The notes under the pieces were generated by a model. That model did no database searches and was not told the DNA's origin. It worked only from the letters and a program-made list of their open reading frames with translations. A program made the position numbers and the translations under genes. Source: Sipunculus nudus (Eukaryota; Annelida; Sipuncula; Golfingiida; Sipunculidae). From it: 64,000 nucleotides of DNA. Shown piece after piece: positions 11,221 to 52,689 of the stretch. Each line of letters opens with the position of its first letter. Position 1 is the stretch's first letter. Location: NCBI GenBank assembly GCA_026874595.1, contig CM049317.1, forward strand, positions 33,408,901-33,472,900, given 5' to 3'.

Positions 11221-12723
11221 ATGCACACGATCTTAAATTTGATTATCCTCTGAACCACCTACTACGCTGCATATGTAGAAGCGACAGACATACCACATCA
11301 AACAAGTACGTGTTTTATAGATCACTTATGATCAAGTTACATATTCAGATATAATCAAAAGGCTCATTTTTTAACACGAGCAAATGCGTATGAACTTGTA
11401 CCTTTAGAATGCACCGGCTGTTGTACATTAGACATTTTTGTATAGAATAGTCAGTATCTCAAAGATAATACCTTTATTAGAAATTCAGAATTATCTGTTT
11501 CATTATAAAGTATTACAATATTCAAAACATCTTGTAGCGATATATTACTGCCTCCGATGTCCTTTCTCTATATTTTAGCCACCAAAGGTTTAATATATGA
11601 ATTTTGGCCATCGTGGGACCGTTGCAAGCAGGGGTTGAAGCCAAGACATCGGTCTAGTCGCTAGGTGGCCTTAAATGGTCATCATCTGTCTGTGCAGATA
11701 GAGTATCGTATCTGTATTGATCCTCCCGTAAACCAATCAACACGGCAGTATTGGAGAAATACAGAACCTTGCTGACAAAGTAAAACTGTACAAATCTCAT
11801 TAAAGAATATCATAGAAAAAACATTATACAGGAATCAGCATTAACTCCAGAGCACATATTACCTGAAAATCATATTTTGTGCGAGCTTTCATTGTGAATT
11901 AATTTAATGGTACGTATATCACGCAGCCTCTGATTATGCTCCGGAACTAGTGACCGCTTCCTTTGGGGACATCCTTTCGAGAAAGGTTGGAACTCATCGT
12001 GTTATGGTTTATGGATACCTGGATCTCATTCATAACAGCAAAAGCGCATTGCGATCACCTCAACAGTAAACTTGTCAGCAAAGAATCAGGGGAAATGCAG
12101 ATGCATATTGATCGCTTATTCAAGAAATATGGAAAACGTCAGTTTGCTTTGCAAATATGGCTTATCAATTGTATACAGAAGGGTCTGTATTAACACGTTA
12201 TAAGCGCGTTTAAATACTTGTTTGCGGCAAAGGCCATTATAAATGAGCCGGAATTTAGTAATGAAATCCGATATTAGAACATGGTTTAAACCAAATTACA
12301 AAGTCCTGTTATTTTCCATATAAATGCCTTCTTTTTATAGCACTGAGTATAATATCGACTTATATATAGGAAGTGGTTATCAGAGAGCGATAAGAAACAT
12401 ACCTGGAAACGACATGTTTTACATGTCCTATCTACCTTTGTCTTTTTTTATTTTTATCAGGTGCATTTCAGTTCTGCACATCAAGATTCGATGAAACAGA
12501 AGAAGGCCACTAGGAATTGACAGCAACCGGTGAAGCTTTATATTACACCAACTGGGCTTCAAACCAACCCGACAACACTCACTATATTCCAGAAAATGAC
12601 CTTGTCCTTTCACCCGGTGTGTGGATTGACTTTGCGATAACAGTACAGTGCTGTTACATCTGTGAAAGGAATTTCGCTGCAAATATGATAGCAAGAGAGA
12701 GAAAAATTCTCTATTGCACATAA
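11221..12723 (+). pseudogene. Secreted C-type lectin, diverged pseudogene
   Basis: A third member of the same lectin family with the same exon layout. Exon 1 (11221-11305) has an ATG, a hydrophobic stretch, an in-frame TGA after ten codons and a good GTACGT donor. Exon 2 starts at 11579 with EFWPSWDRC, matching YWADWSPWRGC of the intact gene, and hits TAG at 11662-11664. Exon 3 (11927-12137) holds the CTLD start (GWNSSCYG) and AKAHCDHLNSKLVS in different frames, so at least one indel lies between them. Exon 4 (12461-12723) has TAG where the family has Trp, then TATGEALYY, a QPD motif (galactose-type in known CTLDs), WID in place of WND, and YICERN. Intron phases are all 1 where they can be checked. 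Four separate lesions show that it cannot make a full protein. Confidence 0.85.
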
Positions 12724-20852: not shown

Positions 20853-20858
20853 TTTATT
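20853..20858 (-). promoter_or_regulatory. Candidate polyadenylation signal AATAAA
   Basis: AATAAA on the minus strand about 170 bases after the stop codon of the CTLD receptor at 21026. The position fits a short 3' UTR. No transcript evidence is available. Confidence 0.4.
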
Positions 20859-21025
20859 AAAGCATAGTTAGAAATGATGCATTCACAAAATAACATCCGG
20901 CGTTAATGTATCATTCATATGACCAATAACATCTTGCGTTTATATATTTCCTAGAACCGCATACGGATATGCCTATATATGTTATTTGTGGGAAAGTTTC
21001 GTATTCGATGACACTGTATTGTGTG

Positions 21026-24000
21026 CTATGTATTATAGATGTCATTGTCAACCATGATGGTTACGGACTCCTCGTCTACATCAACATCAAGCTGACTTTC
21101 GTTCTTATGTATCTGTTGATTCTGAGATATGAGAAGATTATAATAGTCAGCATTATCAGTATTCGAATTCACATCTTCCCGAGTGAAGGCTTCAACTGCA
21201 TACGCGTACATGCTGTCTGAAGTGTTTCCAGTTGCCGTGACCTCGGACCTTTCATCCGTTTTCTTCGGGACGGCATATACGAACGCTCCTGCACCATCTG
21301 TACTGGAATCGAGTATATTATTTGGATTAATTTGTATATTCTCGTTGTGTTCTTCAGCACTCTCTGGCATGACGTGGTCAGATACCGACTGATTCTTATT
21401 CTTTGGTTGGTTTTTCCTCTCACTATTGAGCAAGGAATAAAGTATGCTCATCTCCCCGGCTCCCTCCGTGACCATACCAACGGTAGGCTTCACATCCCTG
21501 ACTGTAGATCTCAGTACGTCTCTTTCCGATTTGTTTAAACCTTCTGGTAAAATATTATGCATATGATCTTTCATAAAGTTCGATAAATTAATACAGTCCG
21601 CAGTTTCATAAATATGTTTGTCAAAACGTTGAGTCATGCCAGTGGGGTGTCCGCTTCCGGCCAATGTAGTGTAATCGACGTCGTCAATTTCACTGTACAC
21701 ATTATCGGACTGGTTAGGATGATCTATTCCAGTTGTACATGAAAACTTAACGCTTACATTTTCAGCACGATAGCCTTTATCAGTCATCCTGCGTCGTTTT
21801 TGCCAGCTACAATAAAATATATTTAAATACAATTAATCAACTTAATTAAATATAAATTTATATAAATTATGAATTAATTTTTAAGTACATTAAAGACATT
21901 GAAATATAAATCTGTAGATATGGGAGAGCGAAAAAGATAATTAGGCACTTTGAATTATATTTTCATACTGACATACAGGGGGATGTTGATAATAACAAGA
22001 TTGGTTATGTTTTTAGATGAATTTTGCAAAAAAATCTTACCACACAATAAGCACAAGTAGAGCTGCAAGAATAATCAGGCCAGTCACGCTTCCTATGCCT
22101 GCCACCATGGGAAGAGTATTTCCATCATTACCTATGAATGCAAATAAAAATGAACGTTTTGGAATATTGCTTCAAACACCGCGAAATTACGTTATAAACA
22201 CAAACACTTAATAACTTTAATTATAACAACCTAAAATGCATACAATAAAAAAACAATACTTTTTTAAAGCGTTCGGAAGAACAGAAAAGAAGTATATTCT
22301 TCAAAAATATCCACAAGTAAATTTAAAATTTTACTTCACCTGCTGACGACTTCATGTCAGATGGCACTGATGAGCCGGTGTCAGTTGTTCGTGTGGTTGA
22401 AAAAACACCGACTCCGTAAGAAATTGAAACAAAGGTCTCCTCAGATGAAAGTTTTTCATGGAAACTGTTAGTCCTCTCTGTGGGTTCGTTATCTAATTGC
22501 AAGTCAATTGTTAATTTTTGTTGTTGTTCTAGATTACAAAAGAAAGTAACTATTTTATTATACACTTTTATACATACGCAGCATCCGTATAACGAAAGTC
22601 ATATTAAGAAGAGGGAGGTATAATGCATTACCAAAAACCCTAAGAAGTTTGGACAACTATAGAAATTTCTTCAACGGAACTTATAGCAGACCTGATTCAC
22701 AGATAAAGGCATCTGCTAATCCTTGGCAACGTTCGGATGTCCAATCTGAGTCCTGATCTAACAAGATACAACGGTCATGCAGAGCTACCTTTGCTGTGGC
22801 ATCTTTCCAAAATCCACTTTCAACGTCTTTCCTAGAGAACTCTTTAAAAGTTACAAAAGAGTTTTTTAACATGCCATCAACATTTATATTCCATGGCAAA
22901 TGAGTCGGGCTAAACATACAATTTCTTTTCAAGGAAAAAAAATCGTTTAAATGTACAACTTGATTTTATTTTTACAGGGCTCTTATTGAGATCTACATTG
23001 ACACCATTATTTTCTTAACATGTGCGTAGTTTATATGCGGGCGAAATCGCTTAACGTTAATAAGAACTTACCGTCATGCCAAGTCCACCTTCTACTAGAC
23101 CCAAAGACCCATAATATGGTCTGCCTGGAATCCAGCGCAATTTTGTGCATAACATTTCTGAGGTTCCTAAAGTCTTCGTTTTGAGGAAACGAAGCCAGGA
23201 CCGAATTTCGCGTAGTATCTAAATTTGAACATTTGCTCACTGCCGCTTCCCAGGTAACACTTCGTTTGATATAGCTGAGACACTTCTCCGTTGATGTCAT
23301 CTCGAACTCATTTTTACCACATCGCCAGTCTTGGTGAGGTTTATCTGTTGACAAAATTGTTATTTACTATTGTTGAGTGAAATGCATGCAAGAATAGGCG
23401 TTTTGATTGTTACCATAAATCTGTTCAATTTATTTATATTATCAAACAATGATGACAAGCTTTAATATAAAAAAGATATTTCCAGATAGTTAACTGAAAA
23501 TTCTTCTCACGTTAAGATACATCATATGAAACATTTAAGATACAACCTTCGGCTATTAGTGGGCAGATGTATTTAATGACAACAAAAACTTACCGAGAGT
23601 ACAGAGGGGGTAATGGTGTGCCGTACATAGTTCGTCTTTAAGTTTCGTTAGATTAGATAGCCAGCTCCTTGTTACAGTAAGGCAAAACGATAGGCCGAGT
23701 CCATGTTCACGTCCAGTTGGATGCTGTGCTTTCCAAGTAAGTTTGTCTGGAACTATTGGGTGAGACTTATTTAACTTTGCTAGAAATATATATGTGCAAA
23801 GATATATTGAAGGACACTCGGTGATATGTACAACATATTAGTTCCAAATTCACAAGGTAAGACATTAAGTAAGATTCCAAATGGAAACAACAATTGTATG
23901 ATCTGGCGTTACCGACAAAGTTGATATATTCCGATTTTTTCCATCTTTTTATAGTCTTATGTTAAAGAACTCCAGTTCAGGAAGATAAAAAAAAATAAAA

Positions 24001-27000
24001 TAAAACAAGGTCACTTATAAGTATATCGAGCTCATATCATAAGTGATTATATCATGCAGGGTCCATTTAATTATTAAAAATAGATCTTATTTCCTCACAA
24101 TTTGCGTTTGTCATATATATCGCCACATTTTGGTAATCTGCTCCAGACATCATCTCCCAACGAGGAACGCACGTCCCTGGTCCACTCATACTACGATTTT
24201 CGAAATCATTTCTGCAACAACAGCTGCCTGCATTACCCTCCTGCAAGGATAATATTAAAGGGCTTGGGTTTTTAAACGTTTTTGAACAGTGAATTGAATG
24301 CGTTTTGACCAATAACGTATGCTGTTCGTGCTAGATGACGACCACCAACAATATACCCGGGACGTTTTTTTTCAACGCCATGTAACCATCCATCCTCAAA
24401 TAATACAACCACTTCCTTTGCCGCTCCTTCAGTCAAACCAATGTAGGGAGCCTTTGTTTATATAAACGTTTATATCAGTTAGCAGTAAGCGCAGGAAAAA
24501 AAACAACTGGTTAAGTTGGAATTTGACTTGCCAAATAAAAAAAAACCAGAAACATGTTAATTATTAGATTGGATTCCATAAGAAAGTATTCTAGGCCAAT
24601 AGAATCACTGAAAGTGTAGCTATTATAGTAAGAATGCCATATCATAACCAAAAGGTGGTTCCCATGATGATGATCATATCACCAAATAGTTAACAAAATT
24701 ATATTGGAAAGAGCAATGGTTCGTAATAAGGTCCTCTTTTCTTTCATGTACAACGGTTAACATATTGTTTATAACGATATCGTATCTAATTTACAAAACC
24801 TTATGTTCGGTATTTTAAACAGGTATACATATAAACTTGGATGTATATCATTGTATGCTCCATCGGAGAATTACCTGTTGGTTTTGGGCTAAAATTTCAG
24901 GAAACTGGGCCCTCTTTTGGACACTTGTGATAATGCTAAATGAGTGCAAATGACGACTTTAAAGAATAAATGAAATCAAGATATTTTTCGAATATATAAT
25001 AATTTATCTTAGTCGAATCAAACAATTGAAAACTACATGTAGAAAATGAACTTGTTACAATAATATTAAATTAATAATAATAATAATAATTATTATTATT
25101 ATTATTAAAACAGTAAAAATTAATAAAAAATGTGGTCAGAGGCAACAACTTCCGCCACGATCCAAATCAGTTTACAAAGCAAAATTTGAGTTGTCGCTGT
25201 TCAACATTTAAAACCATTTATTAGCTTAAAAAACACGGACTATGGGCCTTGACAGCGACCAAAGAAAAGCAGTGTCAGAATGGAAAGGAAGCATTTGAAT
25301 GAAAATACATATATAACGGTGATCCGTATAACTTTTTATAGGTTTCTATAAGTGTAACCTAAACCCTCCACACAGAATATCATCAAAATCGTTTTGATAT
25401 TGCACATAGAAAACCAAACGTTCGAGGATTAAACATAAAAGATCTCACCATCTTGTGGACGTATGATTATAATGATAATCGTAGAATAAATACATGTTTC
25501 TCACAGTTTAATTGACATTTATTCATTTGTATTGTTTATTTTTGTTTTAATCTCCTATTTTGTTACACTAGTAAACTTGTAATCACGATAATTAATTCCT
25601 TCTGTTGAAACATAATTATAAAAAAAAAAAAATTGAAGATCAAAACGAAATCCGAATGAAAATGGCTTTTTTTCTGGACACGTAAATCGCAAGTAAACGA
25701 GTAAACAGTCCAACCGCAATGCATACTGAAAAATGACCAGCCTGCAACCTGACGGCACCCGTATTAATGAAAAACACCTCATTACAGTGCAATTTCTAAA
25801 ACTGAACATTCATAATTAAGTGCAGTTAATTGAGCTGAACATCCTCAGTGACTGGCAAGAATAATACAAACACAAATATCCCTTACCAAGTGAATTGAGA
25901 AGTACTTAAAAGACTGTCAACGTGTTTTGCAAGCCTGGATAGACCAGACCCGCCTACACCCTAGCTCTTTAGCTCCAAGTCTCTCTGCATAGCAGCCTTG
26001 ATAGTAGATTCCATCATGGTGCATATCTAGGGAAAGGTATATTTAAAGTAGGTTGAATGGAGAAATGTAATATATGTAGAGAATGACAGAGCGGGAGAGA
26101 AATACGCAAAATAAGACGAAACGCCGGTTGCACCTTTCTAGACTTAAACATGTACAGAGGAAACTGAATAAATGGGTAGTGGTCACCGCTTACCTCTGTT
26201 GACCCAATTCCAGTATAATGGCCCGGTTCTACCACCTATCCACGTTCGCATTACACCAGCTTGTTGTATTAGTCTATGAAGGACTGAGTGGGACTGGAAA
26301 GAGGTGTCCCACACAAGTTTGGCTTTTTTCTCACTGCATGCTTCATGTGCCTCAGTCCAAGTCATGCTGCCATGATACAGACAGTACTGCATATCTAAAT
26401 GTAAATAACATTAGTGTAACATTACTTTTGTGAATAAAAAATACGTTGCACCGTATATACAAACATACATACATACATTTATGGGGCCTGGACATCTGAG
26501 TGGTAAAACGCTCGGCCCTCTTCGGCCAAGGACGGTGGTTTTCCCCGATTCCGACTACCGAGTGCGAACATCCCAGCCATACAAAGTGCCTCGTATTATT
26601 ATAACTATTTGTATAATCCATGTAAAAGTTTATAAATGGGAAATCAATGTTTAGACCACTTCACATTTTACACATATATAAACATATTTTGAAATTAGAC
26701 AGTTATAGTTTAATTAATATTTATAAAGGTTCAAAACTAGGAAGTCGTACAAAGATCATATATATAGAATAGTTCTGAAATAAATACATGCAACCACTCC
26801 AATAACCTTTTCACATTTATTACTTGCAAATGTGTGGACCCAGATGTTCCCCAGCCCTTAAAACCTGGTCCATTCCTAGTTATAATATTTATGTTATATT
26901 TGTGCCGAATGATATGATTATAAATACTACCATCCATTTTGAACTATGGCTTGCCCTGTTGCATATAGAACAAAATATTAATGTAAACACTTTGTTACAG

Positions 27001-29425
27001 AACTTAATATCAACAGATCACCTAGATTATAAATTTGGTTATGGAAATAAAAAAAATCAGATTCCGTAACACTAGGCAGGGTGAAATGTCTAGGGGAATG
27101 AATAAAGAAGTCAGTGTTTTTTAGTTAACAACTAATTATAATTTATTCTTAAAACAACCCTAACATTACAATACACTAAATCAATCCTTTTGTTTTTCTA
27201 ATTCTAACTCTTTTAATCTTTCATGTTCTTCCCTCTCTAACTGTTTGTAATGCTAGCTCATGTTGCATTTCTAACTTTTTAAATTCGAACTGCATACCAA
27301 GGCTGTCATTTTTTATTTTTTTTCACTTCACTCTCTTCCTTAAACCTTTGCTAACTAGATCTTGCATGATTTTAGCAATGATAGCAGGCTTTCTCTAAGT
27401 TTTTTTTTCACACTGAGCCCTAAGTGTTGTCCCAAACGCAACAACTCATCTGTTGACAACTGTTTTAGTTGATCAGGGTCGGGATCTTCAACAAATGTCT
27501 CAGGTTTGAAATATGCCATGTTAAGATGTTAAAACAAAAACAAAAAAACACTGAGATAAATCCTGCAAACTATGTATTGTATACAATGTGTAATCTTGTA
27601 TACAATATATGTTAAACAATGTGTCTAGGTCAAGGTCTAATAAAGTTTCAAAACTCTTAAGCTTCCCGGACGAGCCCCCAATTTTATGTTACGGAACCTT
27701 ATATCAACATATCACGTAGTCGTGACGAGCATAAATTTTATTATGGAGATAAAAAAATCAGATCATGTTACTAATCAGCGTGAAATGTCTAGGGGAATGA
27801 AAAAAGAAGACAGTGTTTTTTTGTTAACAAATAATTATAATTTATTCTTAAATCAACCCTTACATTACAATATATCAAATCAATTACATAGTATAACAAC
27901 AGTACAACAACAAATCAATACAATTACACAGTATAATAAATATTGTGTATAGTACCTGGATACCACCACTGTAACAGCGACAACAAGTCCTTTAAGGCAT
28001 ATTATCCAGATGATCAGTTAACATAAATCTTCTCAGAGAATAAAAGTCCAATTCAATCACAAAATCATTCTGTTGTAATCCAAAAGTGAAATTCTTATAA
28101 TAATCCCGATGCCAAACTGGAGACAGGCCGCACTAAATCTGCTTAGAGTTCGTAGAATCCCTGAAACTACTGTAATTATCGGATAGTTCCCAAAACTGAC
28201 TCACGATCTTCCGGCCCGCTGGAATATTTCTCCATTCTCTATTCTCTCCGTCTCTAAAACACAGCCCCCTATTTATAACTTTTCATCCGAAAATTCTAGA
28301 AAATTCTTTTTCACGAACAATCCAAAAGAACCTAACAGTACATAATACACACGCCAAAAGAACATTACAAGACATGAGCTCATAGAGCGCGACCAGCCGA
28401 GAAAGTTCCAGATTAGTACTGTTTCTATGCACGCCAAGGTCACACGTGGGCCGGCCCGGGTCGCGTGTTTCCCATGGCAACGGACAAAGCTAACGCTACA
28501 CAGACACATGTAAGACTGCTGCACACAATAAAAGAGACATCTGTAACAACTTATATTCTGAAGTTGTCTTGCCACTCATGTGAATATAATTAGGATTGTA
28601 GAATTGTGCTTAGGTATATATGTAATGAAGCGTTTTGTATCTGCCATCCTGTGAATTTTAGGCGACTGATCGCAACCGTCAACTTGGGGCAGATCGACGA
28701 TAAACGGCGACTCATCAACCCCTCCAATCCAACCCTAAATCCTGCATTTGACGACATTATGTACAACCGGTTACAAAAAAAAAAAAACACCGATATGATA
28801 AACCTACGCAAGGTGAATGGCTACCAGCGACCCGATCGTTTCGGATAAGGACGGCTAAGCTGCGATGACATCAACGACCACACAAACGACAAGTTTTGAT
28901 CACACTGGCGACAATCTACGACAACCGAATCACGCTACAAGCAAGACCACGCTTCGACTCGAACAGCGATATGGCGAGAATAGTTGATTGCATTTATTAA
29001 AATTCGGGATCAGGATCAAGATTTGGCATGGAGCAACGTGTTCTTTCTTTAAGAAGAAGACACCTTTCATTATCAGTGTCACGGGAGGGTGGAGTGGAGT
29101 CAAAGAAAAGCTCAGTGCAGTTGAACCTTTTCAAAAATCCAGCAGTACCTGGTTGGAGGCTATAAGTCTCAAGGTGATTTAAGAGACTTGCCCCACCATA
29201 CAGTCGACACTCTGGCAATCATGTGGCGATAGCTGGGTAGAATTTCTAAATGATATCCTAATATGAGTGGTCTTATTACATTATCAGAGATGTACAACTA
29301 AATCAAAGAAATCAGGAAAAAAACTTACCGTTATTAAGTCGACATATTTCAGTCGAATCAATCCTCAATGCCTTGATAAATATATAAATAATCAAGAAAT
29401 CCCTACTGATATTCCCTGATTTCAT
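21026..29425 (-). CDS. Transmembrane receptor: two CTLDs, Ser/Thr stalk, ITIM-bearing tail
   Basis: Minus-strand model in transcript order: 29425-29329 (ATG, signal peptide), 26394-26194 and 23779-23594 (CTLD1), 23344-23072 and 22924-22692 (CTLD2), 22528-22340 (Ser/Thr-rich stalk), 22131-22041 (transmembrane helix, VAGIGSVTGLIILAALLVLI), 21806-21026 (cytoplasmic tail). All junctions are GT/AG and phases agree (1,1,1,-,1,1,2), except between 23072 and 22924, where the frame is off by one base. CTLD1 has CLYHGSMTWTEAHEAC, TWIGG and YPLCT; CTLD2 has EKCLSYI, SKCSN, WHDG, DRCILL and FICES. Neither has EPN/QPD or WND, so classical calcium-dependent sugar binding is unlikely and a protein or other ligand is inferred. 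After CWQKRRRM the tail carries consensus ITIMs VDYTTL and ILYSLL plus VYSEI, IYETA, VYAVP, DYYNLL and terminal DIYNT. Role inferred: immune-type surface receptor with inhibitory or adaptor signalling. Intron 1 contains an LTR element. Confidence 0.8.
24100..24460 (-). other. Possible unassigned exon pair inside the receptor's third intron region
   Basis: On the minus strand, an open stretch reading IGLTEGAAKEVVVLFEDGW (about 24450-24320) and another after a TTATCCTTGCAG acceptor (about 24240-24100, several Cys) lie between the two exons of CTLD1. The first faintly resembles a CTLD core. Their frames do not join the phase-1 pattern of the receptor, so they may be decayed exons of a duplicated domain or chance. 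Confidence 0.2.
25072..25106. repeat. (AAT)n-(ATT)n palindromic microsatellite
   Basis: AAT units change into ATT units in the middle, giving a perfect inverted repeat able to form a long hairpin. It is intronic to the receptor gene. Confidence 0.9.
26480..26580 (+). mobile_element. Degraded tRNA-SINE-like fragment
   Basis: CATCTGAGTGGTAAAACGC resembles an A-box region and a decayed CCCCGATTCC-type segment follows at B-box distance, as in tRNA-derived SINEs. It lacks an intact B box, so the call is tentative. Confidence 0.4.
26993..27187 (-). repeat. Truncated 3' LTR
   Basis: About 195 bp matching the last part of the 5' LTR, including GAAATGTCTAGGGGAATGAA and the terminal CTGTAACA. It abuts gag-derived sequence because of an internal deletion. 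Confidence 0.8.
27355..27519 (-). pseudogene. gag-like ORF fragment of the LTR element
   Basis: The first ATG after the primer site (27519) opens a 54-codon frame, acidic and then Lys-rich, ending at TAG 27355-27357. The following ~170 bp still reads as charged, Glu/Lys-rich peptide in other frames before the LTR remnant begins. Position suggests a gag start; no nucleocapsid or other gag motif is left to confirm it. Confidence 0.5.
27664..27680 (-). other. Primer-binding site, tRNA-Pro type
   Basis: The minus strand reads TGGGGGCTCGTCCGGGA six bases inside the 5' LTR edge. This 17-mer is the well-known complement of the tRNA-Pro 3' end used as minus-strand primer by some retroelements, and it fixes the polarity of the element. 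Confidence 0.85.
27687..28548 (-). repeat. 5' LTR with TATA box
   Basis: 862-bp LTR bounded by TGTTACAG and CCGTAACA. TATAAATAG (28277-28269) followed by GGGGGCTGTG is the likely core promoter; the solo LTR keeps the GGGGCTGTG part. Open frames here are not genes. Confidence 0.8.
28620..28848 (+). other. Unassigned open frame with NPAF motif
   Basis: An open frame ending TAA at 28846-28848, with PSNPTLNPAFDDI and a basic end. NPxF-type motifs occur in receptor tails, but there is no partner exon and no clear family. It may be a decayed terminal exon or chance. Confidence 0.2.
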
Positions 29426-29608
29426 TATGCGTTTGTCGCACTTACCAAGGCGAAGACAGATAAGCTACCTTGTTTAAGACACCAGTGGAAGTAGATACTT
29501 CCTTGTTCAGTGACTCGTCGGGCGTGACGAGTTAGTCGCACTAGTAATAACAACATAACAAATACCCTGTATAAATAGATCAACGGGCTTGTGTATACAC
29601 CAAATAGT

Positions 29609-29672
29609 TCATGAGAAGGTTTAACCTGCGCTCCCCTTCAATGAGCATAGGCTGAAAGCGCAAGGGTGAGGT
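29609..29672 (+). other. Imperfect hairpin
   Basis: GTTTAACCTGCGCT faces AGCGCAAGGGTGAGGTTAAGC around a short loop, giving an imperfect ~25-bp stem. Otherwise 29426-31040 shows no gene. Confidence 0.3.
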
Positions 29673-31042
29673 TAAGCAACAGAATATCTGCCATTTGTTG
29701 GGAAATAGGTTGTGTGTCATGATAACCACATGTCTTTAATACCCCAGAAGTTCCATTTTTTTAGATAATATATTAAAATAAATGTTGAGTATTATTTTTG
29801 TATGGATATTGTTTGATTATAATAAATCTGATTATTTTGATTATGATTATTATGATTATATTTATCAATATACTAAATACGCATTTGGGTTTTTCTACAC
29901 AAAGGTTTAACTGCTTCTGCTCTGATTTGGCCTTCGAAGTTTATCTCACGTATCGTCAGTGTGCTCTTCTAAGACAAGTTTGTTTTATTAAACGCGATTA
30001 TGCCCTATTAAGCTTCATAATCAATAATGTTTATATTCCCCCAATACGTGCTCCCTTTTCTTTTGTGCTTTTAGGTCCTCCACGCCTGTCCTTTTATTGG
30101 GAGACGCCTTTGGGATTTTTTTCCATTTCGACCTCACTGGCCACAGGGCGTTTTGTGCAATTCTAAACAAAGACCATAAGAGTCCACTTTCAGTGCGAGG
30201 GCTTTTCAATTTGGTAAACGCTACGACCAGTTTCAAGACCACCGTTTGACTTGTTATGGGTGAGAGGTATGTTGAATTCTATACATTCATAAATAGCTTT
30301 CCATAATCACCATGGTTATAATAGTTCATCCAGTTTAAGGGTTCCGGGCGTAGCCGCCAGAGGAGGTCTTAGGTTGGCATGCCCCCATCCCCACTCGTCG
30401 CATCCAGTTCTCCCCGTCTTCCAGAATTTCACTTAGTCTAAACTTGATTAAAATTTCTAAAGCTCCATTATGAAATTTCTGTAACTGATATCCGCAGGTT
30501 TGGTAATTATTTCTGCATTTCATTAGGTATGATCATGCCAATAGTACATTTTTAATTATTCATATTTTAAAACATGAATGCGTTGTGTCGAATGAATATG
30601 AAGTGAATTATATATTTTTTTTATCATACCCAACCAATTGATAACTGAAAACATATTTTTCAATTTATATGCAAATTATTTTTCATAAACTTTCACTTTT
30701 CTGTATACAATCGGCATCACTCTTGCAATGATGACGTCGTGTCCATGATGTTTAACAGAGGAAGAAACTGTTATAACGCAAAATTCGTATGCACTGTATT
30801 AGCCTCTGCGTAACAGTCTCTGCATAAAGCACATAATCAAAATATGCGACATTCATACCCTAACAGCTCATTGCAAGACCATTTATCATATTAAACCTTG
30901 ATCTTTCAACGGATGCATCAAGTTATTTTTGTTGTTGTTATTGTTTTTATAATTATACTAATTGTTATTATTGTCAATATTGTTAAGTAGTATTAGAAGA
31001 ATGAATAATTAAAGGCCAAAAACAAATACCAATATTAAAATA

Positions 31043-32341
31043 CAGTGAAAACTGGTCTAACGGACACCTCACTTAGGCGGACAACTGGCTAAAACGGACA
31101 AGATGGTTAAGTCCCTTCAAAATTCCCTATATGTTATGTATAAGCGGAACCTCTGTAAGGCGGACACCTCACTACTGCGGACAACGGACAGCAGATTTCA
31201 ACTCAAACCAACATTCCAAGAGTAAATAAACCTGACAAATGCGGACACGATACGCCACCTTCGACGGACTCTGATCACTCGCCCCGGGCAACATCAAAGA
31301 CCACCTGTACTGTTGTTGTGTCTGGGACTTGAAAACAAAGGATTATGCAATCCCCAGCTGTTACCTTAATGAGTGTCCGTGCTCATGTCACGAAGTGATG
31401 TGCTCCTTAGTTAAACACAGCAAATATAAAGCGATAAACATCGTGTGACTTTATTTCACGGTTAATCATTCACACGATGCGAAGCTGCACATTTTCGCTC
31501 GACCGCGGGGTCATTAAATTGATTAAACGGCTACCGATTACCTATGCGTCCCCGATCTCACAACGCAGTATCTAACTGTAAAATTAGCCACTTTGTTATA
31601 GCAGGCTGTTTGATATTAATTTATCGGTTTTGCTCAGTATATCTCAAACTGATCTGCTCAGTGTCAAACATCTGCTCGCTCCGTAGCTGTTTGTACCATC
31701 CCACCGGGCACAAGCTCCTCGGGGTTGGTTTAATCTCGGGTGCCTTCAACATTAAAGCAAATCAAACCAAACAACCATCATCAAATAAAGTTTGTTTAGG
31801 CTAAAGCTGTACATTCATGTATAAAAACGAATGTTCCCAGGTTCCCAACCGTTACAATCTTCCCATTATCAATAGCGTCATTATCTTTGAGATTATCGCA
31901 TTTGGACAGCTGAACAAAGACAGTTTTATGCAATGCCGCAAGGTGGCACCACACGTACTCCTGGGCGGGAGCTTATGCTATCTGATAACGTCAAGCTTAT
32001 TCGACTGAGTGAATCAGCAAAAAAGAGCGTACGCGAGTATATGAACATTGTTTTCACGGATGTCTTCATAGCCTTTTCTCCTTATATTGTTCACTACTTG
32101 AGATAAGTAAAAATAATCACAGTTTGTATATGAATATTGAATGTAGGATGTGTGAATGAATATGTATTACATTTACATGAAATCTGATATAATACAATAA
32201 ACACGTCCTTGTAGCTGTTCGTTGTCTATATTTATAATCCCTCCGTAATCAACTAAGGTAAATCTGTCTAAAAAGGACACCTCACTATTAAGGACAAAAT
32301 GACTGAGTCCCTTGACTGTCCGCTTTAGACAGGTTTCACTG
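31043..32341. mobile_element. Tigger/pogo-like DNA transposon, non-autonomous
   Basis: Ends CAGTGAAAACTGGTCTAACG and, in reverse, CAGTGAAACCTGTCTAAAGC, followed on both sides by repeated GCGGACA-type words; flanked by TA on each side (31041-31042 and 32342-32343). TA targets and CAGTG ends fit the Tigger/pogo branch of the mariner superfamily. The 1.3-kb interior shows no transposase frame with a recognisable DDE pattern; the longest open frames (31544-31804, 31817-32008) look unrelated. Confidence 0.75.
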
Positions 32342-32985
32342 TATAAAAAAATGGTTATGATCATATTACAATACAGAATTTTATGTATTCCTTACACTAT
32401 TGTTAAGTAAATAACTTACATTCGATCAATACCAACAGAAGATTAACGTAATTAACGTAAAGGGCAAATTTAAACTGAGGTTCATGTCTCTGTTTTTTTT
32501 TTTTTTTTTTGCTTTAATGAAACAATATTTATAACACACAAACGAGAGTAATCGTTCCATAGTGCCTAATATAATTAATTGAAGAACCAAAATGATATAA
32601 CAAGAGATGCTGTCTCTATGATGTTAGATTAAGCGCAAAGATTATTTGTCGTCTTTGTGAAACAGTTGATTTGATTAGTACTGTCATAACCTATTGATTG
32701 CATACTGCGATTGTGAAAATGAGAGAAAGGAAGGGCGAAAGAAAGAACTAGTGAAGGGAAGAGTGAAAGGAAGAAAGAGTTGAAGAAAGAAAGAAATGAG
32801 TATAACGGCTTATTATTCTCAGTGACGTTTGATTGGAAGCAATCGATTGGTTCAACTCAGTTAAATATATATTTTTACATCACTTCTATGAAAATCTGAG
32901 TTGTTTCCTATATACGATAAAAGAGAATAGTATTATTTTTAAGTAAAAAATTTCCTATATACTTCCTATATACGAACGCCCACGT
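32342..32985. other. Intergenic, no gene seen
   Basis: AT-rich, with a poly-T run near 32490-32510 and a purine-rich GAAAG/GAAGG stretch at 32722-32800. No exon is evident. Confidence 0.5.
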
Positions 32986-32989
32986 TCAT

Positions 32990-33180
32990 GAATCGGAGGG
33001 TTTCCAGGGGCTCGAAGCAGACCTTGGGGCCAACACCCTCTGGGCCGAGTTTCTCTGGAGCCAAGCGTCTATTTGGGCCGAATGTTGTTAAGGCCGAGTG
33101 CCGTTGGGGCCGAATGTTTCCGGGCCGAGTATCTCCTCGAACGAAATTTCCCGTTACCGCCTGTGGACCTATAAATCTTT
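32990..33180. repeat. Imperfect short tandem array of GGGGCCGA words
   Basis: The phrase (G)GGGCCGAATGTT / GGGCCGAGTATCTC recurs every 20-25 bp for about seven units (TTGGGGCC, TGGGCCGAGT, TTGGGCCGAATG, AAGGCCGAGTG, TTGGGGCCGAATG, CGGGCCGAGTAT). It is GC-rich in AT-rich surroundings and leaves both strands open in several frames, so the ORFs there are not reliable. Confidence 0.65.
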
Positions 33181-33397
33181 CACCAGATGTTGCGGACCAC
33201 ATGGCGTCCGGCAACAACAGGGGCGTCAATATAGGGGGGATGGGGGTATATATAACCCCCCCCCCCACTTTTTGGCAAGGTGGGGATGGCCAATGTAATC
33301 ATCACCCCCACTTTTCAGAGAATTATATTATAATATTGCAAATGAACTAAATTTGTAAATAGAATTAAAGACTTTGGATCCATTTACTAAAAAAGGA

Positions 33398-33483
33398 TGT
33401 ATCTTAACCTTGCTTTGAATTACAAAATAACTTTCTATGTTGTATCTAAACCTTGCTTTGAATTACAAAATAACTTTCTATTA
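33398..33483. repeat. 43-bp tandem pair
   Basis: Two adjacent copies containing ACCTTGCTTTGAATTACAAA and ATAACTTTCTAT, nearly identical. (AT)n follows at 33517-33565. Confidence 0.85.
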
Positions 33484-33511
33484 AAATATAATTATTTGAA
33501 ATATGATTAAG

Positions 33512-33516
<5 letters not shown>

Positions 33517-33565
<49 letters not shown>
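33517..33565. repeat. (AT)n microsatellite
   Basis: About 48 bp of AT dinucleotide. Confidence 0.97.
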
Positions 33566-33568
<3 letters not shown>

Positions 33569-34142
33569 GAATATGTGACTCAGAGACGCTGAAAAAAGGG
33601 ATATGTGTGTGTGTATATATACATATACAAAGTCATCCCCCCCCACCCTGGAAGAAAAATTGACGCCACTGGGCAACAATCACCAGATTGAGCTTCCAGT
33701 TACAATGTGTCTTGCTTAATAATGCATATATGCTACCCCACGATTACAACCAACATTTTCCAAAAAAAGTTCTACACCTGGGGGGGGGGGGGGGTAACCC
33801 CCTGCCAATGCCTCCATCCCAAGCTTTTTTCTTATGCTGCGAAGACCTGATTTATGCTACGTGTCTCCTGATTTTTTGTTACATTTTTGGAAAGATGATC
33901 AATAGTTGACCGGACGCACTTAGACATGGTGTCAGAATTTATAAATGACTCAAACTGTAAACAGCCGAAACACCGATTGGCTAGTGGCAGGTCGGCCCTT
34001 AAGAAATGTTAAGTTATTTTATAACAATTTTATGCAATTAACCACGCACTGTCGGTGTATGAAAGCCTATCTAATATCCAGCAGTTGCATTGCAGATTGC
34101 GGCAACAGAAAGAGTTATAAATTCGCTTGGGGTATTAACTTG

Positions 34143-34281
34143 CAGGCGCTGATCTAGGATTTTTTTTTTTTTTGCAGGGGGGGGGGGGGGTTAACAGGTG
34201 TCATGCATAACAATTTTCAAAGAGGTAGTTAGTTAAGAGGAGGGACAACCCCCCCCCCCCCCCCCCCTGGATCCGCGCCTG
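34143..34281. mobile_element. Small inverted-repeat element (MITE-like), 139 bp
   Basis: Ends CAGGCGCTGATCTAGGA and, in reverse, CAGGCGCGGATCCAGG. The interior has long poly-T/poly-G on one side and poly-C on the other, so it can fold back. Flanking ACTTG and ACTCG may be a 5-bp target duplication with one change. Related ends occur at 43051-43256. Confidence 0.6.
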
Positions 34282-34469
34282 ACTCGGCAAGCGATCAGGG
34301 TCTGATATGGGTCTGATGATGTGAAAACCCGCTAGATCGCGCTGCATCCGTAAGTTATGCATATAGAAAGCAGATTACATCTAAGTCTGCATTTACTTTC
34401 GCCTCAACATTGCTAGTGTTAATTTGCATTTTTCTGTATCAACTTACAACGCATTGCAATCGATTTACC

Positions 34470-34853
34470 ATGACATTCCAAGAATACACATCGTATGCTC
34501 CACATTACTCAAAACTGGCGGCGCGAGACCGTGTTTCTGAAGTTTACTGGATGTGTCGGCATAGACCTGTCCATGTCCCTGTGTATTCATACTTTGACCA
34601 GCAACTTACAGGCAGTAAGCCTATTGATTCATATTTTATAAACATGGATCTAGGAACATCCAAGAAGTTTTACTCTATGGTTAAAATTAAAATTAGATAT
34701 TCTATCACTATTTCACGATTTGCATTTGAAGCAATATTTGGGGAATTTGGCTTTGATCAAACCCGGCATCTGTTGTCCAACAGAAGACAACACCCTAACC
34801 ACGACGCAATATATGCTCTAGCCCATGTTGGAATCAACTCGCTGTCAAAGTAA
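34470..34853 (+). CDS. Unassigned single-frame ORF, 127 residues
   Basis: From ATG 34470 (MTFQEYTSYAPHYSK) to TAA the frame is open with fairly balanced amino-acid use, rich in Tyr, Arg and His, and no low-complexity tract. I recognise no domain, signal peptide or membrane segment. There are no clear splice signals and no duplicate in the window. It could be a fragment of a mobile-element gene or a short intronless gene. The frame is also open upstream to 34410. Confidence 0.3.
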   Translation: MTFQEYTSYAPHYSKLAARDRVSEVYWMCRHRPVHVPVYSYFDQQLTGSKPIDSYFINMDLGTSKKFYSMVKIKIRYSITISRFAFEAIFGEFGFDQTRHLLSNRRQHPNHDAIYALAHVGINSLSK

Positions 34854-35676
34854 CCACCGACCGGTGACCTACCGGTGTGTTTTTACCCCGTATTTAACGT
34901 TTAAATCACAGTTTTTATTTTATGGCTCTATAGTGAAACTTTGAATGCACTCACAGGGCACAGACCTCCGCCAAGACAGATCAATACCCTCATATGGCAT
35001 TGTCAGAAATGTAGCATTTTGCTTAAACACATCCTGAATCCTATCTAATCAATTGTTCCTCGTATCACGAAGAGCTTTAGTAAAAACTTTATCAAGATCC
35101 GTTAATACCATGTTTGTGAGTAATATTGCTAACAGACAAACATAGAGACAAACAAACCAAAAACATAACCTCCTTGTCGAGGGTGACAACAAAGCATCAT
35201 AATAGTATCCCAATGAACATTATTTTGTTGTGGTAAGTCTTGATCTATTATTATATATAATTCAGTCTGTCTCTCAAACACACACATATAAACATAAAGA
35301 GAAGATGAAAGTGAAAAAAGTAGCGAAGGGAAATATGAAAGTTGGTACCAGGTGATACCGTCACAGGCCTAGAACACACAGCCCAAATGTAAATACTTCC
35401 TGCAAATACAAATTTGTCAAAAGTGACTGTGATTTATTAAATTATCGTATCCATCCTAAGCCAATATACAGTGGACCTTATAACAACTGAAATATTCCCT
35501 TGGACGACAAACCTTCGGTATGTGGGCCGTCCCTACCAAACCGCTTTATCGTCTTTATCGCATATGAGGAATAATCTTTGAGCAGATGACGACGAATCGG
35601 TAAATGTGTAATTAAAGTGTTCTTCTTGAAGCTTTTTCCATAGAAATTTCCGACATTAAGTTTATTTTGTAATGTA

Positions 35677-35677
<1 letters not shown>

Positions 35678-35727
<50 letters not shown>
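35678..35727. repeat. (AT)n microsatellite
   Basis: About 49 bp of AT dinucleotide. The surrounding 34860-36440 shows no convincing gene. Confidence 0.97.
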
Positions 35728-35730
<3 letters not shown>

Positions 35731-36451
35731 AACACAGGCATTCCTGTCACAACAGGGCACGAGACTTCTGCGAGTTATAAAAGCTATCAATACCTGTCAC
35801 ATGTTATGTTGATTGACTCGTGAGTTATATGTCGACAAGGGCCCCGAGCCAAAAATAAAGACAAACATCACGACGTTGACCTGACCTTCTGATAAGTTGG
35901 TAAACAAACAGACACGTGGCTCTGATGAAGAGTAATTCTCACTCAAGCCCGTTAAGGGAATATTTCATACCTGTACAATACACATATAATTATATTAATG
36001 ATTAGAATATATAACAAGAGATAAAACAAATCACAATACATAAATATAGTAGTATGAATAATTAGAATATATAAAAATGAGATTTTATAATACATAAAAT
36101 TCAAAACGAAAATCAGTCTATGAGACCGGCTGAAGATAAGCACAGAAATGGCACTTTATGAAAACTTATCATGATACAGATTGACTCCATAATGTATTAT
36201 ACATATGATTTTCCAGCATACTGGTGGCGTATACATCAACGCCTCTCAAACACCCCCAATCGCCACACTTTGAATCGTCAAAGTAATCCTGTTAAAATGT
36301 TCAATATTTGTACCATCTACCTTATCTAGATGTACTAGATTAGCATAAGCATAAACAATTTTTATGACTCATTCTCCTTCAGTGAATGATCCCTCTGTTC
36401 TTTTATTCGGTAGGGCCACCAGTTACTGTTGTATCATGGATTGTTGGCAAT

Positions 36452-36944
36452 TCATCGCTTTTGACTCTTCAAAACCACCCTTGTGTTCATGTCCGAATAA
36501 TCATTTAAGGCATTGTCTGAAGAATGAGTTGATGCGTCTTTCCTTCGATCTTTTTTCTTAACTGGCACTGAGTACAGTTCATGTTCTTTAATCCAATGTT
36601 CTGTAGTAACCATTAATGCAGAAAATACTGTCTGTTAAAATACATTACCACAGTCCGTTAGACAAGGTTTTCTGTCAACATGGCATCCAAGTAATTCATC
36701 GCTATACCTCCCTGTTTCTGTTGTATTAGTGGATGAACTTGTAACGCAACCATGATCCATAATTAAACTGGCAATGTTTATTGTCTGGTAATCTTGGACA
36801 TTTGACCTCCTTGCCCCGAGAATTGTTATATATAATCCAGCTATTATTGAACCTGATACGCTCTATTTGGTGCGAACATTCATATTGGTGTGTTGGTGTA
36901 TCACCACAAGCTTTATTGTCAGAATAATCATTTGGATAACTCAT
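36452..36944 (-). pseudogene. Cysteine-rich two-exon gene fragment, apparently frameshifted
   Basis: Minus strand. Exon A 36944-36649 reads MSYPNDYSDNKACGD, HQYECSHQIERIRF and EVKCPRLPDNKHCQF in one frame, then DHGCVTSSSTNTTETG and GCHVDRKPCLTDCG in another, so one indel seems to lie near 36760. An 87-bp GT/AG intron (phase 1) leads to exon B 36561-36452, a Lys/Arg-rich segment (KKKDRRKD), ALNDYSDM and a TGA stop. Regular cysteines and sequons suggest an extracellular domain, while exon B looks like a basic cytoplasmic segment. No transmembrane helix lies between them. The family is not recognised. It lies just downstream of the second tyrosine-tail gene on the same strand. Confidence 0.35.
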
Positions 36945-37170
36945 TGTGGGTTTTTTTCGTAAAGCATGGAGTGTCTACCTCTTTGTGTTTATCAGTACTA
37001 ATGTTGTTTTTTACTCATGCTCAAGGGTAAACATATACTTGGCCCTGTTATGTAATTGACAATAAACGTACTGTCAAGATAGCATTAATTATTTCACACA
37101 TAAGGTAATCCTTCTAAAAGACAAACGAAATATTTACATTTTATGATATTTTTTGTTGATCATTACATTA

Positions 37171-37385
37171 AAGGGGCCGAATCACATATAAAGCATGTTT
37201 TTTAACACGTAAAATGGCATTTTCCCTTTGAAATAATTCTGTACCTCCCAAATTATCGCCTTGAAACCGATTGCAATCTCCTGTAAACGAGTGTTAAAAC
37301 AGTGAACCGGGCGCTATCACAGATGTCAACATAAACTCAGTGCTAGGGGCCGTGTGTATCGCGAAGCCACAACACGTATCAATCA
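37171..37385. repeat. Dispersed repeat, copy 1
   Basis: Matches 44066-44255 over about 200 bp: CCAATCAC/CGAATCAC, ATATAAAGCATGTT, CCCTTTGAAATAATT, and the C(G/T)GGCGC(T/G)ATC region near 37310. No coding potential. The class is unknown. Confidence 0.6.
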
Positions 37386-37654
37386 TGAGATGCCCTCACT
37401 GACTTGACCAAAAAATCTAATACATGTTCCCGGTTTCTATTATAGGACTGAGAGTGGCCTGTTAGTATATATGCACAGATCTGCGTTAAACATATGCATA
37501 GTCAAATATACAGATTTGAGGAAGCAGTATGTATACTAACATATAATAACACTGCTTTTGAACAGAGAAAACATCATAAACATTCGGTATATATATATTA
37601 TCTCGCATCAAATTAAAATAGTTACGGAAACATTTTGCTCAAGAGAAAATATTG

Positions 37655-37728
37655 GGTCGATCCTGGATTCGAACCCCTATTGGTTGGGCACATGTCTGGC
37701 GTTCAACCGCTTCGCAACAGCTAGAAAA
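37655..37728 (-). mobile_element. tRNA-like element (SINE head or tRNA-derived)
   Basis: On the minus strand an A-box-like TAGCTGTTGCGAAGCGGTTG and a strong B box (GGGGTTCGAATCC) are spaced as in a tRNA. The outer arms do not pair well enough for a functional tRNA and no anticodon arm can be defended, so a SINE head is more likely. Confidence 0.5.
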
Positions 37729-37788
37729 AAGCAAGCTTCTTTAGCGAGATGGTTCGGTCCGCTTTTATCTACACCCCGTATCAATATG

Positions 37789-37794
37789 TTTATT
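37789..37794 (-). promoter_or_regulatory. Candidate polyadenylation signal AATAAA
   Basis: AATAAA on the minus strand 44 bases beyond the stop codon of the tail exon at 37838; spacing is plausible for a compact 3' UTR. Confidence 0.4.
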
Positions 37795-37837
37795 TCATAC
37801 GCTGAACTAATCCAGTTCGATGACTATATTTTGTGCC

Positions 37838-38350
37838 TTAAGTATTATAGATGTCATTATCAACACCTGTGGTCGCGTCATCTATATCATCGGATGTACT
37901 TGCTTCCTTATTTCTCTGCTGGCTTTGTGATATAATAATATTATAATAGTCAGCGTTATCAGTATTTCCGTTCACGTTATCGTCATGGAACCCTTCGTTT
38001 GCAAATGCGTACACGCTCTCTGGAGTATTTCTATCTGTTGCGACCTCTGACCTTTCAGGCGGTTTCTTTGGCACGGCATAAACCACCATTCCTGCACACT
38101 CTGTAATCTGGTCGCAGGTTTGACCAGGATTCGGCTGACTCTTCTCTTTGTGTTTTTCAGCACTCTTTGTCATAACGGGTTTTGATTCCGATTGATTTTG
38201 CTCTGACCGATTTTTCCTCTCTTTCTTAGGCACCGCATAAAGAATGCTAACGTCTCCCTTGGTCTCTGTGACGGGATTCAGGGTAGGCCTCAAATCAGTG
38301 TATTTTGTTGATTCCTGTAATCCTCTACCAGGATTGTCATAACTCTTACC
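37838..38350 (-). CDS. Tyrosine-motif cytoplasmic tail, last exon of a second receptor (5' exons not found)
   Basis: Minus-strand exon of 171 codons after a TTGTTTGCAG acceptor, ending TAG. Its C-terminal two-thirds is paralogous to the tail of the CTLD receptor at 21026: SILYAVPKK, VVYAVPKKPPERSEV, ESVYAFA, NTDNADYYNIIIS and VDNDIYNT align in order with SILYSLL, FVYAVPKKTDERSEV, DSMYAYA, NTDNADYYNLLIS and VDNDIYNT. Additional motifs are SYDNP and KYTDL. YAVP and YDNP are YxxP and YxN types that in other animals bind Crk-like and Grb2-like SH2 domains; the classical ITIM of the first gene is replaced by YAVP. The membrane and extracellular exons should lie upstream (higher coordinates), but a satellite begins about ten bases from the acceptor and I find no CTLD exon beyond it, so the gene may be partial or have a long intron. 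Confidence 0.65.
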   Translation of the reverse strand, partial: GKSYDNPGRGLQESTKYTDLRPTLNPVTETKGDVSILYAVPKKERKNRSEQNQSESKPVMTKSAEKHKEKSQPNPGQTCDQITECAGMVVYAVPKKPPERSEVATDRNTPESVYAFANEGFHDDNVNGNTDNADYYNIIISQSQQRNKEASTSDDIDDATTGVDNDIYNT

Positions 38351-38360
38351 CTGCAAACAA

Positions 38361-40660
38361 TAATGCGTTCTAAAAACGTCCTCACAACGTTTTAGTTAGG
38401 TTCGGATAACATTATTTTGAAACGTTCTGTGCACGCAAAAATGTATGGTTTTATGTACGGACTGTGAACGTAAAATCAGACGTTCGTTGCCGTTGTTTTT
38501 ATTACGTGTTTGCAACGTTTTATCAAGTCGTTGTAGTTATGTTAAGAATACGTCTAATAAACGTTTGCTCCTAGTACAATGCTAACGTGTTAGCAACATT
38601 TCTGTTAAAACGTTCTGTGCACGCAAAAATGTATGGTTTTATGTACGGTTTGTGAACGTAAAATCAAACGTTCGTTGTCGTAGGTTTTATAACGTGTTTG
38701 CAACGGTCATCAAGTCGTTGTAGTAATGTTAGGAAAACGTCTGATAAATGTTCGCTGTTAGTATAATGCCAACGTGTAAGCAACATTTCTGTTAAAACGT
38801 TCTGTGCACGCAAAAATGTATGGTTTTGTGTACGGACTTTGAACATAAAATCAAACGTTCGTTGTCGTAGTTTTTATAACGTGTTTGCAACGGTGATCAA
38901 GTCGTTGTAATTATGTTAAGAATACGCCTTATAAACGTTTGCTATAAGTATAATGCTAATGTGTAAGCAATATTTCTGTTAAAACGTTCTGTGCACGCAA
39001 AAATGTATGGTTTTATGTACGGACTGTGAACGTAAAATCAAACGTTCGTTGTCGTTGTATTTATACGTGTTTGCAACGGTCATCAAGTCGTTGTAGTAAT
39101 GTTAGGAAAACGTCTCATAAACGTTTGCTCCTAGTACAATGCTAATGTGTAAGCAACATTTCTGTTAAAACGTTTTGTGCACGCAAAAAAGTATGGTTTT
39201 ATGTACGGTTTGTGAACGTAAAATCAAACGTTCGTTGTCGTAGTTTTTATAACGTGTTTGCAACGGTCATCAAGTCGTTTTAGTAATGTTAGGAAAACGT
39301 CTGATAAACGTTCGCTATTAGTATAATGCTAACGTGTAAGCAACATTTCTGTTAAAACGTTCTGTGCACGCAAAAATGTATGGTTTTGTGTACGGACTTT
39401 GAACATAAAATCAAACGTTCGTTGTCGTGGTTTTCAGTACGTGTTTGCAACGGTCATCAAGTCGTTGTAATTATGTTAAGAATACGCCTTATAAACGTTT
39501 GCTATAAGTATAATGCTAATGTGTAAGCAACATTTATGTTAAAACGTTCTGTGCACGCAAAAATGTATGGTTTTGTGTACGGACTTTGAACATAAAATCA
39601 AACGTTCGTTGTCGTGGTTTTCAGTACGTGTTTGCAACGGTCATCAAGTCGTTGTAGTAATGTTAGGAAAACATCTCATAAACGTTTGCTGTTAGTATAA
39701 TGCTAACGTGTAAGCAACATTTCTGTTAAAACGTTTTGTGCACGCAAAAATGTATGGTTTTGTGTACGGACTTAGAACATAAAATAAAACGTTTGTTGTC
39801 GTTGTTTTTATTACGTTTTTGCAACGTTTCATCAAGTCGTTGTAGTTACGTTAAGAATACGTGTCATAAACGTTTGGTCTTTGTATAATGCTAACGTGTA
39901 GGAAACATTTCCGTTAAAACGTTTTGTGCACGCAAAAATGTATGGTTTTATGTACGGACTTTGAACGCGAAGCCAAACGTTCTTTGTTGCGTTTTTATAA
40001 CGTGTCCGCAATGTTTCATATAATCGTTGCAGTAATGTTGGGAATACGTGTAACCAACGTTTGCTCTTAGTTATAATGATAACATGTAAGCAACGTTTCT
40101 GTTAAAACGTTCTTAGCACATACAAATGTATGGTTTTTTTTTGTACGGACTTTGAATGTAAAACCAAACGTCCTTTGTCATCGTTTTTATTACGTGCCTG
40201 CAATGTTTCATTATATCATTGTAGTTATGTTTGGAATACGTCTCACCGACGTTTGTTCTTAGGTATAATGATAACATGTTAGAAACGTTTCTGTTAGAAC
40301 GTTCTTAGCACATACTAATGTATGGTTTTATGTACGGACTTTGATCGTAAACCCTAACGTTCTTCATAGTTTTTATTTCTTGTATGAAAAATTTCACTTT
40401 ATCTTTGTAGATACGCTGGGAATGTCTCATACATATTTGCTCTTAGCTTAATAAAGTGTTAGCAACATTTTTGATAACGTTCTTTGGTCACATAAATGTG
40501 GTTTTATCTACGGTATATTTAACGTAAGATAACACCTTCTTTGTCGACGATTTTCTCATGAATCTACAACGTTTCACAATGTTGTTGCAGTTACGTTGGG
40601 AATACATCCCATCAATGTTTGCTCCTAAGTATAATGATAACATATTAACGATATTCTTAA
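38361..40660. repeat. 187-bp satellite, about 12 monomers, partly in a three-monomer order
   Basis: The anchor AACGTTCTGTGCACGC (or close variants) occurs at 38421, 38609, 38796, 38983, 39169, 39356, 39543, 39730, 39918, 40106, 40298 and 40476, spacing 186-188 bp for the first ten. Monomers are full of AACGTT/ACGT words. Variant words (GTACGGACTGTGAACG, GTACGGTTTGTGAACG, GTACGGACTTTGAACAT) appear in the order A-B-C-A-B-C and then C-like copies; the last three monomers are more diverged. It abuts the splice acceptor of the tail exon at 38350. Open frames inside are not genes. Confidence 0.92.
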
Positions 40661-52650: not shown

Positions 52651-52689
52651 ATACAGGCGGCAACACCTGTCCTCAGTAGAGGAAGAAAC

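Follow-up and report, generated by a model that had tools for sequence, protein, structure and literature searches.

Bivalves are described as having about 200 to 500 CTL genes (PMC10140915), and the transmembrane oyster CTLs with described signalling are activating (PMC13027682, PMC12842671). Two of these, the single-CTLD receptors CgCLec-TM1 and CgCLec-HTM, are reported to carry hemITAM tails and to act via Syk and ERK on IL-17 (PMC13027682; PMC12842671). Clam mannose receptors are listed with 1 to 14 CTLDs (PMC12321717), and oyster CgIgIT2 is presented as an Ig receptor with an ITAM (PMC11999971). The vertebrate CTL receptors with an ITIM include DCIR, MICL and CLEC-12B, and some ITIM receptors are stated to activate (PMC10008955). 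Judged by title and the start of the abstract, and among the literature matches listed, no molluscan CTLD receptor with an ITIM was recognised. The gene discussed here lies on the minus strand of a 64-kb stretch of DNA, referred to below as the window. Its best reading, to which we assign a probability of about 0.55, is that of a type I CTLD receptor with a tail that would dock SH2 proteins. Such a receptor could be activating, inhibitory or phagocytic.

The first-pass annotation had proposed eight minus-strand exons with matched phases, and this model could be rebuilt between positions 29425 and 21026 (Table 1). All introns are of the GT-AG type, the join phases are 1,1,1,1,1,1,2, and the spliced frame encodes 655 amino acids with no internal stop. 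The eight exons are confirmed as real sequence features. A codon-usage test, trained on few exons and scored against 1000 intron segments (with the training exons 4, 5 and 8 left out when they were scored themselves), backs exons 2, 4, 5, 6 and 8, for which a fraction of 0 to 0.003 of the intron segments score as high. Exon 3 is a borderline case (0.036), and exon 7 (0.109) and exon 1 (0.359) receive no support. Since three stretches outside the eight-exon model pass as well (0.026, 0.027 and 0.000), it discriminates poorly. For the candidate exon 1 and the proposed join within CTLD1, the support comes from phases and from profile scores. No Rfam families or tRNAs were found in the window.

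Table 1. Features of the receptor gene and of its surroundings, in window coordinates.
Feature	Position	Strand	Description
Exon 1	29329..29425	-	Start codon and signal-peptide-like leader; donor G/GTAAGT, phase 1; codon usage without support
Exon 2	26194..26394	-	N-terminal half of CTLD1; alone 25.4 bits against Lectin_C, profile 2-59 of 107
Exon 3	23594..23779	-	C-terminal half of CTLD1; join with exon 2 gives 34.6 bits against Lectin_C, profile 2-105
Exon 4	23072..23344	-	N-terminal part of CTLD2; weak matches to LY75/PLA2R CTLDs, E 0.08-0.09; presumed second Lectin_C stretch
Exon 5	22692..22841	-	C-terminal part of CTLD2, last residues FICES; 41.8 bits when placed behind exon 2
Exon 6	22340..22528	-	Stalk; codon usage exceeds all 1000 intron segments
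Exon 7	22041..22131	-	Transmembrane helix; donor phase 2
Exon 8	21026..21806	-	Cytoplasmic tail, 11 tyrosines, stop TAG; relative at 37838-38350
AATAAA signal	20853..20858	-	Begins 168 nt past the stop
Exon-like stretch outside the earlier model	25887..26026	-	Good acceptor, phase-1 entry, in-frame TGA 25919-25917, GTAAGG at 25886 in phase 0
Related tail	37838..38350	-	Open frame without ITIM; 53% identical across 156 aligned positions; immediately preceded by an acceptor-like tttgcag in phase 0

The signal peptide that had been claimed corresponds to a hydrophobic leader, with a 10-residue core that scores 2.5 and is signal-peptide-like by hydropathy. Counting both strands of the window, there are five leader candidates, of which exon 1 alone ends in G/GTAAG in phase 1. 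The stalk and transmembrane helix of the earlier model also hold, with a single helix at residues 378-396, where the best 19-residue hydropathy is 2.81 and KRRR follows directly. No further 19-residue window exceeds 1.6 elsewhere in the 655-residue protein, leader included. Two Pfam matches below their own cut-offs, CD34_antigen (0.011) and MLANA (0.086), both fall on the membrane segment. The topology is probably type I and single-pass.

The Pfam Lectin_C search that had been proposed as a check matched the whole spliced protein with an E-value of 3.2e-13 and 50.8 bits, above the curated cut-off of 22.6. Two stretches of the protein pass an E-value of 1 individually; the best is CTLD1 (residues 42-159), and the second is taken to be CTLD2. 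CTLD1 is split by a 2.4 kb intron between exons 2 and 3. Adding 23779-23594 to exon 2 raises the Lectin_C score from 25.4 to 34.6 bits over nearly the full profile, and the three other stretches joined behind exon 2 gain at most 0.5 bits. The stretch from 26026 (24.8 bits), 24457-24272 (24.5 bits) and 24240-24067 (25.9 bits) were rejected as parts of CTLD1. Of the four stretches tried between exons 2 and 4, 23779-23594 thus fits best as the second half of CTLD1, and the gain is modest; the C-terminal half of CTLD2, if it were placed behind exon 2, would give a higher score (41.8 bits). Against the PDB, the joined CTLD1 matches 28 sequences up to an E-value of 1, led by a mannose-receptor-like IgY receptor (9.8e-06) and followed by CLEC2D (0.0042) and CD69 (0.0077). 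These matches end by residue 78 of 129, and therefore leave the C-terminal half of CTLD1 unbacked. For a CTLD1 variant with the stop-containing stretch, the top PDB match is CLEC10A (0.0054), and the aligned parts lie almost all in the N-terminal half. By eye, a phase-1 intron cuts both CTLDs two or three residues after the WxW motif.

CTLD2 is less secure than CTLD1. Of the two CTLDs that had been claimed, the first is complete across its join, but the second is less firm, as it has no match to Lectin_C up to an E-value of 1 when searched alone, and a phmmer search of the PDB finds LY75 and PLA2R weakly (E 0.08-0.09). Compared with the CTLD1 part (33.6 bits), the whole protein gains 17 bits (50.8 bits), a surplus that we ascribe to CTLD2; perhaps the filters of HMMER are the cause of its being missed when alone. 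A MAFFT alignment of the C-terminal halves of the CTLDs was of low quality and was left out of account. The motif search agrees with the earlier statement that both domains are devoid of EPN, QPD and WND. NK-type CTLDs are likewise without the usual sugar ligands. The label "NK-type", which had been given to the CTLDs of the gene, is loose, since in vertebrates the NK receptors with a CTLD have a type II topology and the receptor described here appears to be type I. The data support a predicted type I transmembrane receptor that has two CTLDs and lacks the canonical calcium/sugar motifs.

Other CTLDs are encoded on the plus strand of the window. The one at about 5826-6517 has both EPN and WND, in contrast to the receptor CTLDs, which have none of the sugar motifs; it reaches 52.3 bits against Lectin_C as a rough two-piece join with unchecked splice sites. 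Together with 696-1428 (+), it forms a tandem duplication with an offset of about 5.1 kb. The first of the two copies appears degenerate, and when part of it was roughly joined, Pfam gave no match. Further CTLD pieces with a QPD motif (TNWASNQPDN...) were seen by eye at 11954-12720 (+), and their rough join has no Pfam match either.

The receptor introns also contain other open stretches. In intron 1, at 27071-27884 (-), there is a retroelement-like insert with a direct repeat of 115 nt, whose copies are 90% identical and lie 699 apart. A gag-like open frame was noticed by eye between the repeats; its only Pfam match is AvrM_N (0.025), below the cut-off. The intron before exon 3 harbours two open stretches at 24457-24067 (-), the second of which, EGNAGSCCCRNDFENRS..., has a good acceptor, phase 0, its own stop and exon-like codon usage. 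For 24457-24272 and 24240-24067, there is no Pfam match above the curated cut-off, and the PDB matches are weak and unrelated (best E 0.063).

The cytoplasmic tail comprises 260 residues, among them 11 tyrosines, 43 acidic and 24 basic residues. All of the motifs previously named in it could be located, namely VDYTTL, ILYSLL, VYSEI, VYAVP, DYYNLL and the terminal DIYNT. The tail has no match to the ITAM (YxxL/I-x(6-12)-YxxL/I), ITSM, NPxY or YxxM patterns, and no relatives of it were found in the PDB.

The window contains a related tail, likewise on the minus strand and some 8.4 kb upstream of the receptor gene's start codon. The entry phases differ, with phase 0 for the acceptor of the related tail and phase 2 for exon 8. 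Over the 153 codons that can be compared from DVKPT on, dS is 0.77 and dN is 0.35, and the resulting dN/dS of 0.45 (bootstrap 0.28-0.69) implies that selection has preserved the shared part of the tail in one copy or in both. The tail may have been constrained since the duplication, although the ratio may reflect one lineage only. YAVP, DYYN and VDNDIYNT are conserved between both tails. Of 7 tyrosine positions, 6 are kept, compared to 76 of 145 for other residues (152 pairs, one fewer than the codons above because of a difference at the edge), but with a one-sided P of 0.08-0.09, tyrosine conservation alone is not significant. None of the eight tyrosines of the related tail is in an ITIM, and a hemITAM-like acidic YxxL is absent from it. 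The ILYSLL of exon 8 is replaced by ILYAVP in the related tail, where YAVPKK occurs twice; in this comparison of two sequences, the ITIM-like ILYSLL site may be the derived one. For roughly the first hundred residues of the receptor tail, VDYTTL included, the related tail has no counterpart.

The related tail may be a fragment, because a CTLD or transmembrane exon was not recognised for it: inspection by eye of the minus-strand ORFs of at least 38 codons at 38.3-64 kb, and tblastn, gave no convincing candidate. Alternatively, it may belong to a gene with missed exons. Searches with the alignment of the tails yielded 149 pattern matches in genome contigs and 145 in viral contigs, none of which was confirmed, in collections that are both unsuited to animal genes. 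Directly upstream of the related tail, there is a tandem repeat array with a period of about 187 bp (38412-40394); another array, with a period of about 180 bp, is located at 51473-52675. A possible last exon of another gene, GRVKPERRKAERDQEWYHTEILEL followed by a stop and preceded by an acceptor-like site, is seen at 41300-41370 (-).

According to the preferred reading, the leader would take the two tandem CTLDs to the outside, as the sequence models suggest. In view of the missing EPN/QPD and WND ligands for calcium-dependent sugar binding, the CTLDs most likely bind protein, or else glycan in an unusual manner. Clustering by the ligand would then cause a Src-type kinase to phosphorylate the tail, and the phosphorylated tyrosines would dock several SH2 proteins. 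The putative docking sites that are retained in the related tail are YAVP, DYYN[LI] and the C-terminal DIYNT, and not the ITIM-like ones. We are inclined to see a tail that docks various partners rather than a receptor devoted to inhibition. The SH2 preferences of YxxP and YxN come from vertebrates, and the favoured motifs are not in excess over shuffles of the tail (P 0.29 for YxxP, 0.68 for YxN and 0.07 for YxxPhi). The sequence itself establishes the exon anatomy, the domain matches, the helix, the missing motifs and the constraint on the shared tail; what we infer beyond this is the type I topology of the receptor, its expression, immune role, ligand, SH2 docking and signalling sign.

The gene had originally been interpreted as an ITIM-bearing inhibitory receptor, in which phosphorylated VDYTTL and ILYSLL would recruit an SHP-type phosphatase and damp immune-cell activation. 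Both sites are matches to [ILVS]xYxx[LIV] and fit the (I/V/L/S)xYxx(L/V) consensus as given in PMC10008955, and the two matches compare with a mean of 0.49 in shuffles, or 0.31 if only I, L or V is allowed at position -2. However, two or more matches also arise in 8.1% of the shuffles (P 0.081), or in 3.7% with the pattern that omits Ser (P 0.037), and the two tyrosines are 78 residues apart. Moreover, neither site has an ITIM equivalent among the tyrosines of the related tail. The consensus matches stand, but beyond them the inhibitory reading is not supported. VDYTTL fits a hemITAM equally well. ITIMs were set aside as the defining feature of the receptor because they are backed neither by the shuffles nor by the relative, and a dedicated inhibitory function appears quite improbable. 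An activating receptor similar to oyster CgCLec-TM1/HTM, in which the acidic YxxL in EIDDVDYTTL would recruit Syk, is also unlikely. It would have a molluscan precedent (PMC13027682), the hemITAM of Dectin-1 is described as coming after a tri-acidic DEDG (PMC11624271), and the single hemITAM-like site of the tail has a shuffle P of 0.034. Yet this value is similar to that for the ITIM, and the pattern (at least three acidic residues among the five that precede Y) was set after the site had been seen. The related tail is without such a site, and without a counterpart to the part of the tail that bears VDYTTL.

A different kind of alternative concerns the gene model itself. Two genes may have been merged, or one gene may give rise to two products. 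One of them would be short and secreted, encoded by 29425-29329 and 26394-26194 with a stop at 25917, and the other would be a receptor that starts further downstream. The stretch 26026-25917, with its good acceptor, matching entry phase, stop and exon-like codon usage (0.026), would be suitable for the end of the short protein. In contrast to 23779-23594, which completes the profile, it adds nothing to the Lectin_C match, however, and the GTAAGG at 25886, being in phase 0, is out of step with the exon that follows. From 21000 to 38000, the minus strand has no second leader exon of the kind sought. The stretch 25887-26026 has no Pfam match; it is possibly a truncating alternative exon, a relic, or a product of chance, and a division of the gene into two products seems rather doubtful. 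On the more speculative side, the type I receptor with a multi-tyrosine docking tail could belong to a lineage-specific invertebrate CTLD receptor family. In such a family, one shared and selectively kept tail (YAVP, DYYN, terminal DIYNT) would gain or lose ITIM- or hemITAM-like sites from one duplicate to the next, which would give neighbouring paralogues opposite signs, as in the vertebrate paired NK receptors. We regard this scenario as a long shot.

Like oyster CgCLec-TM1 and CgCLec-HTM, the receptor combines a CTLD on the outside with a transmembrane helix and a tyrosine-motif tail, and the transmembrane domain of HTM is described as C-terminal (PMC13027682, PMC12842671). By their descriptions, the oyster proteins have a carbohydrate recognition domain, bind LPS and bacteria, and are activating (PMC13027682, PMC12842671), whereas the receptor described here has two CTLDs, both lacking EPN/QPD/WND, and 11 tyrosines in a tail of 260 residues. 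The mannose receptor family (MR, LY75, PLA2R; clam RpMR, PMC12321717) is similar in being type I with tandem CTLDs. The likeness is also apparent in the PDB matches, of CTLD1 to the IgY receptor (9.8e-06) and, weakly, of CTLD2 to LY75 and PLA2R. Unlike in this family, cysteine-rich and FNII domains were not found, Lectin_C alone being above the Pfam cut-off. Moreover, there are two CTLDs instead of the eight of MR, and the tail is long, not short as reported for the mannose receptor family (PMC12321717). With the molluscan CgIgIT2, the receptor shares a transmembrane architecture and a tyrosine-motif tail, but not the five Ig domains or the ITAM given for that protein, to which the tail has no match (PMC11999971). 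With DCIR, MICL and CLEC-12B, it shares the CTLD and an ITIM-consensus match in the tail (PMC10008955). Unlike in those receptors, the ITIMs are not present in its single relative. DCIR, MICL and CLEC-12B are type II proteins whose N-terminal tail is short. In such an animal, tyrosine-tailed lectin receptors are thus an already known kind of protein, of which the gene would encode a variant, distinguished by the lack of sugar motifs in its two CTLDs and by a multi-tyrosine tail that is long and constrained. With a relative nearby, this two-CTLD receptor offers a concrete starting point for the question of whether lectin receptors in such animals come in activating and inhibitory pairs.
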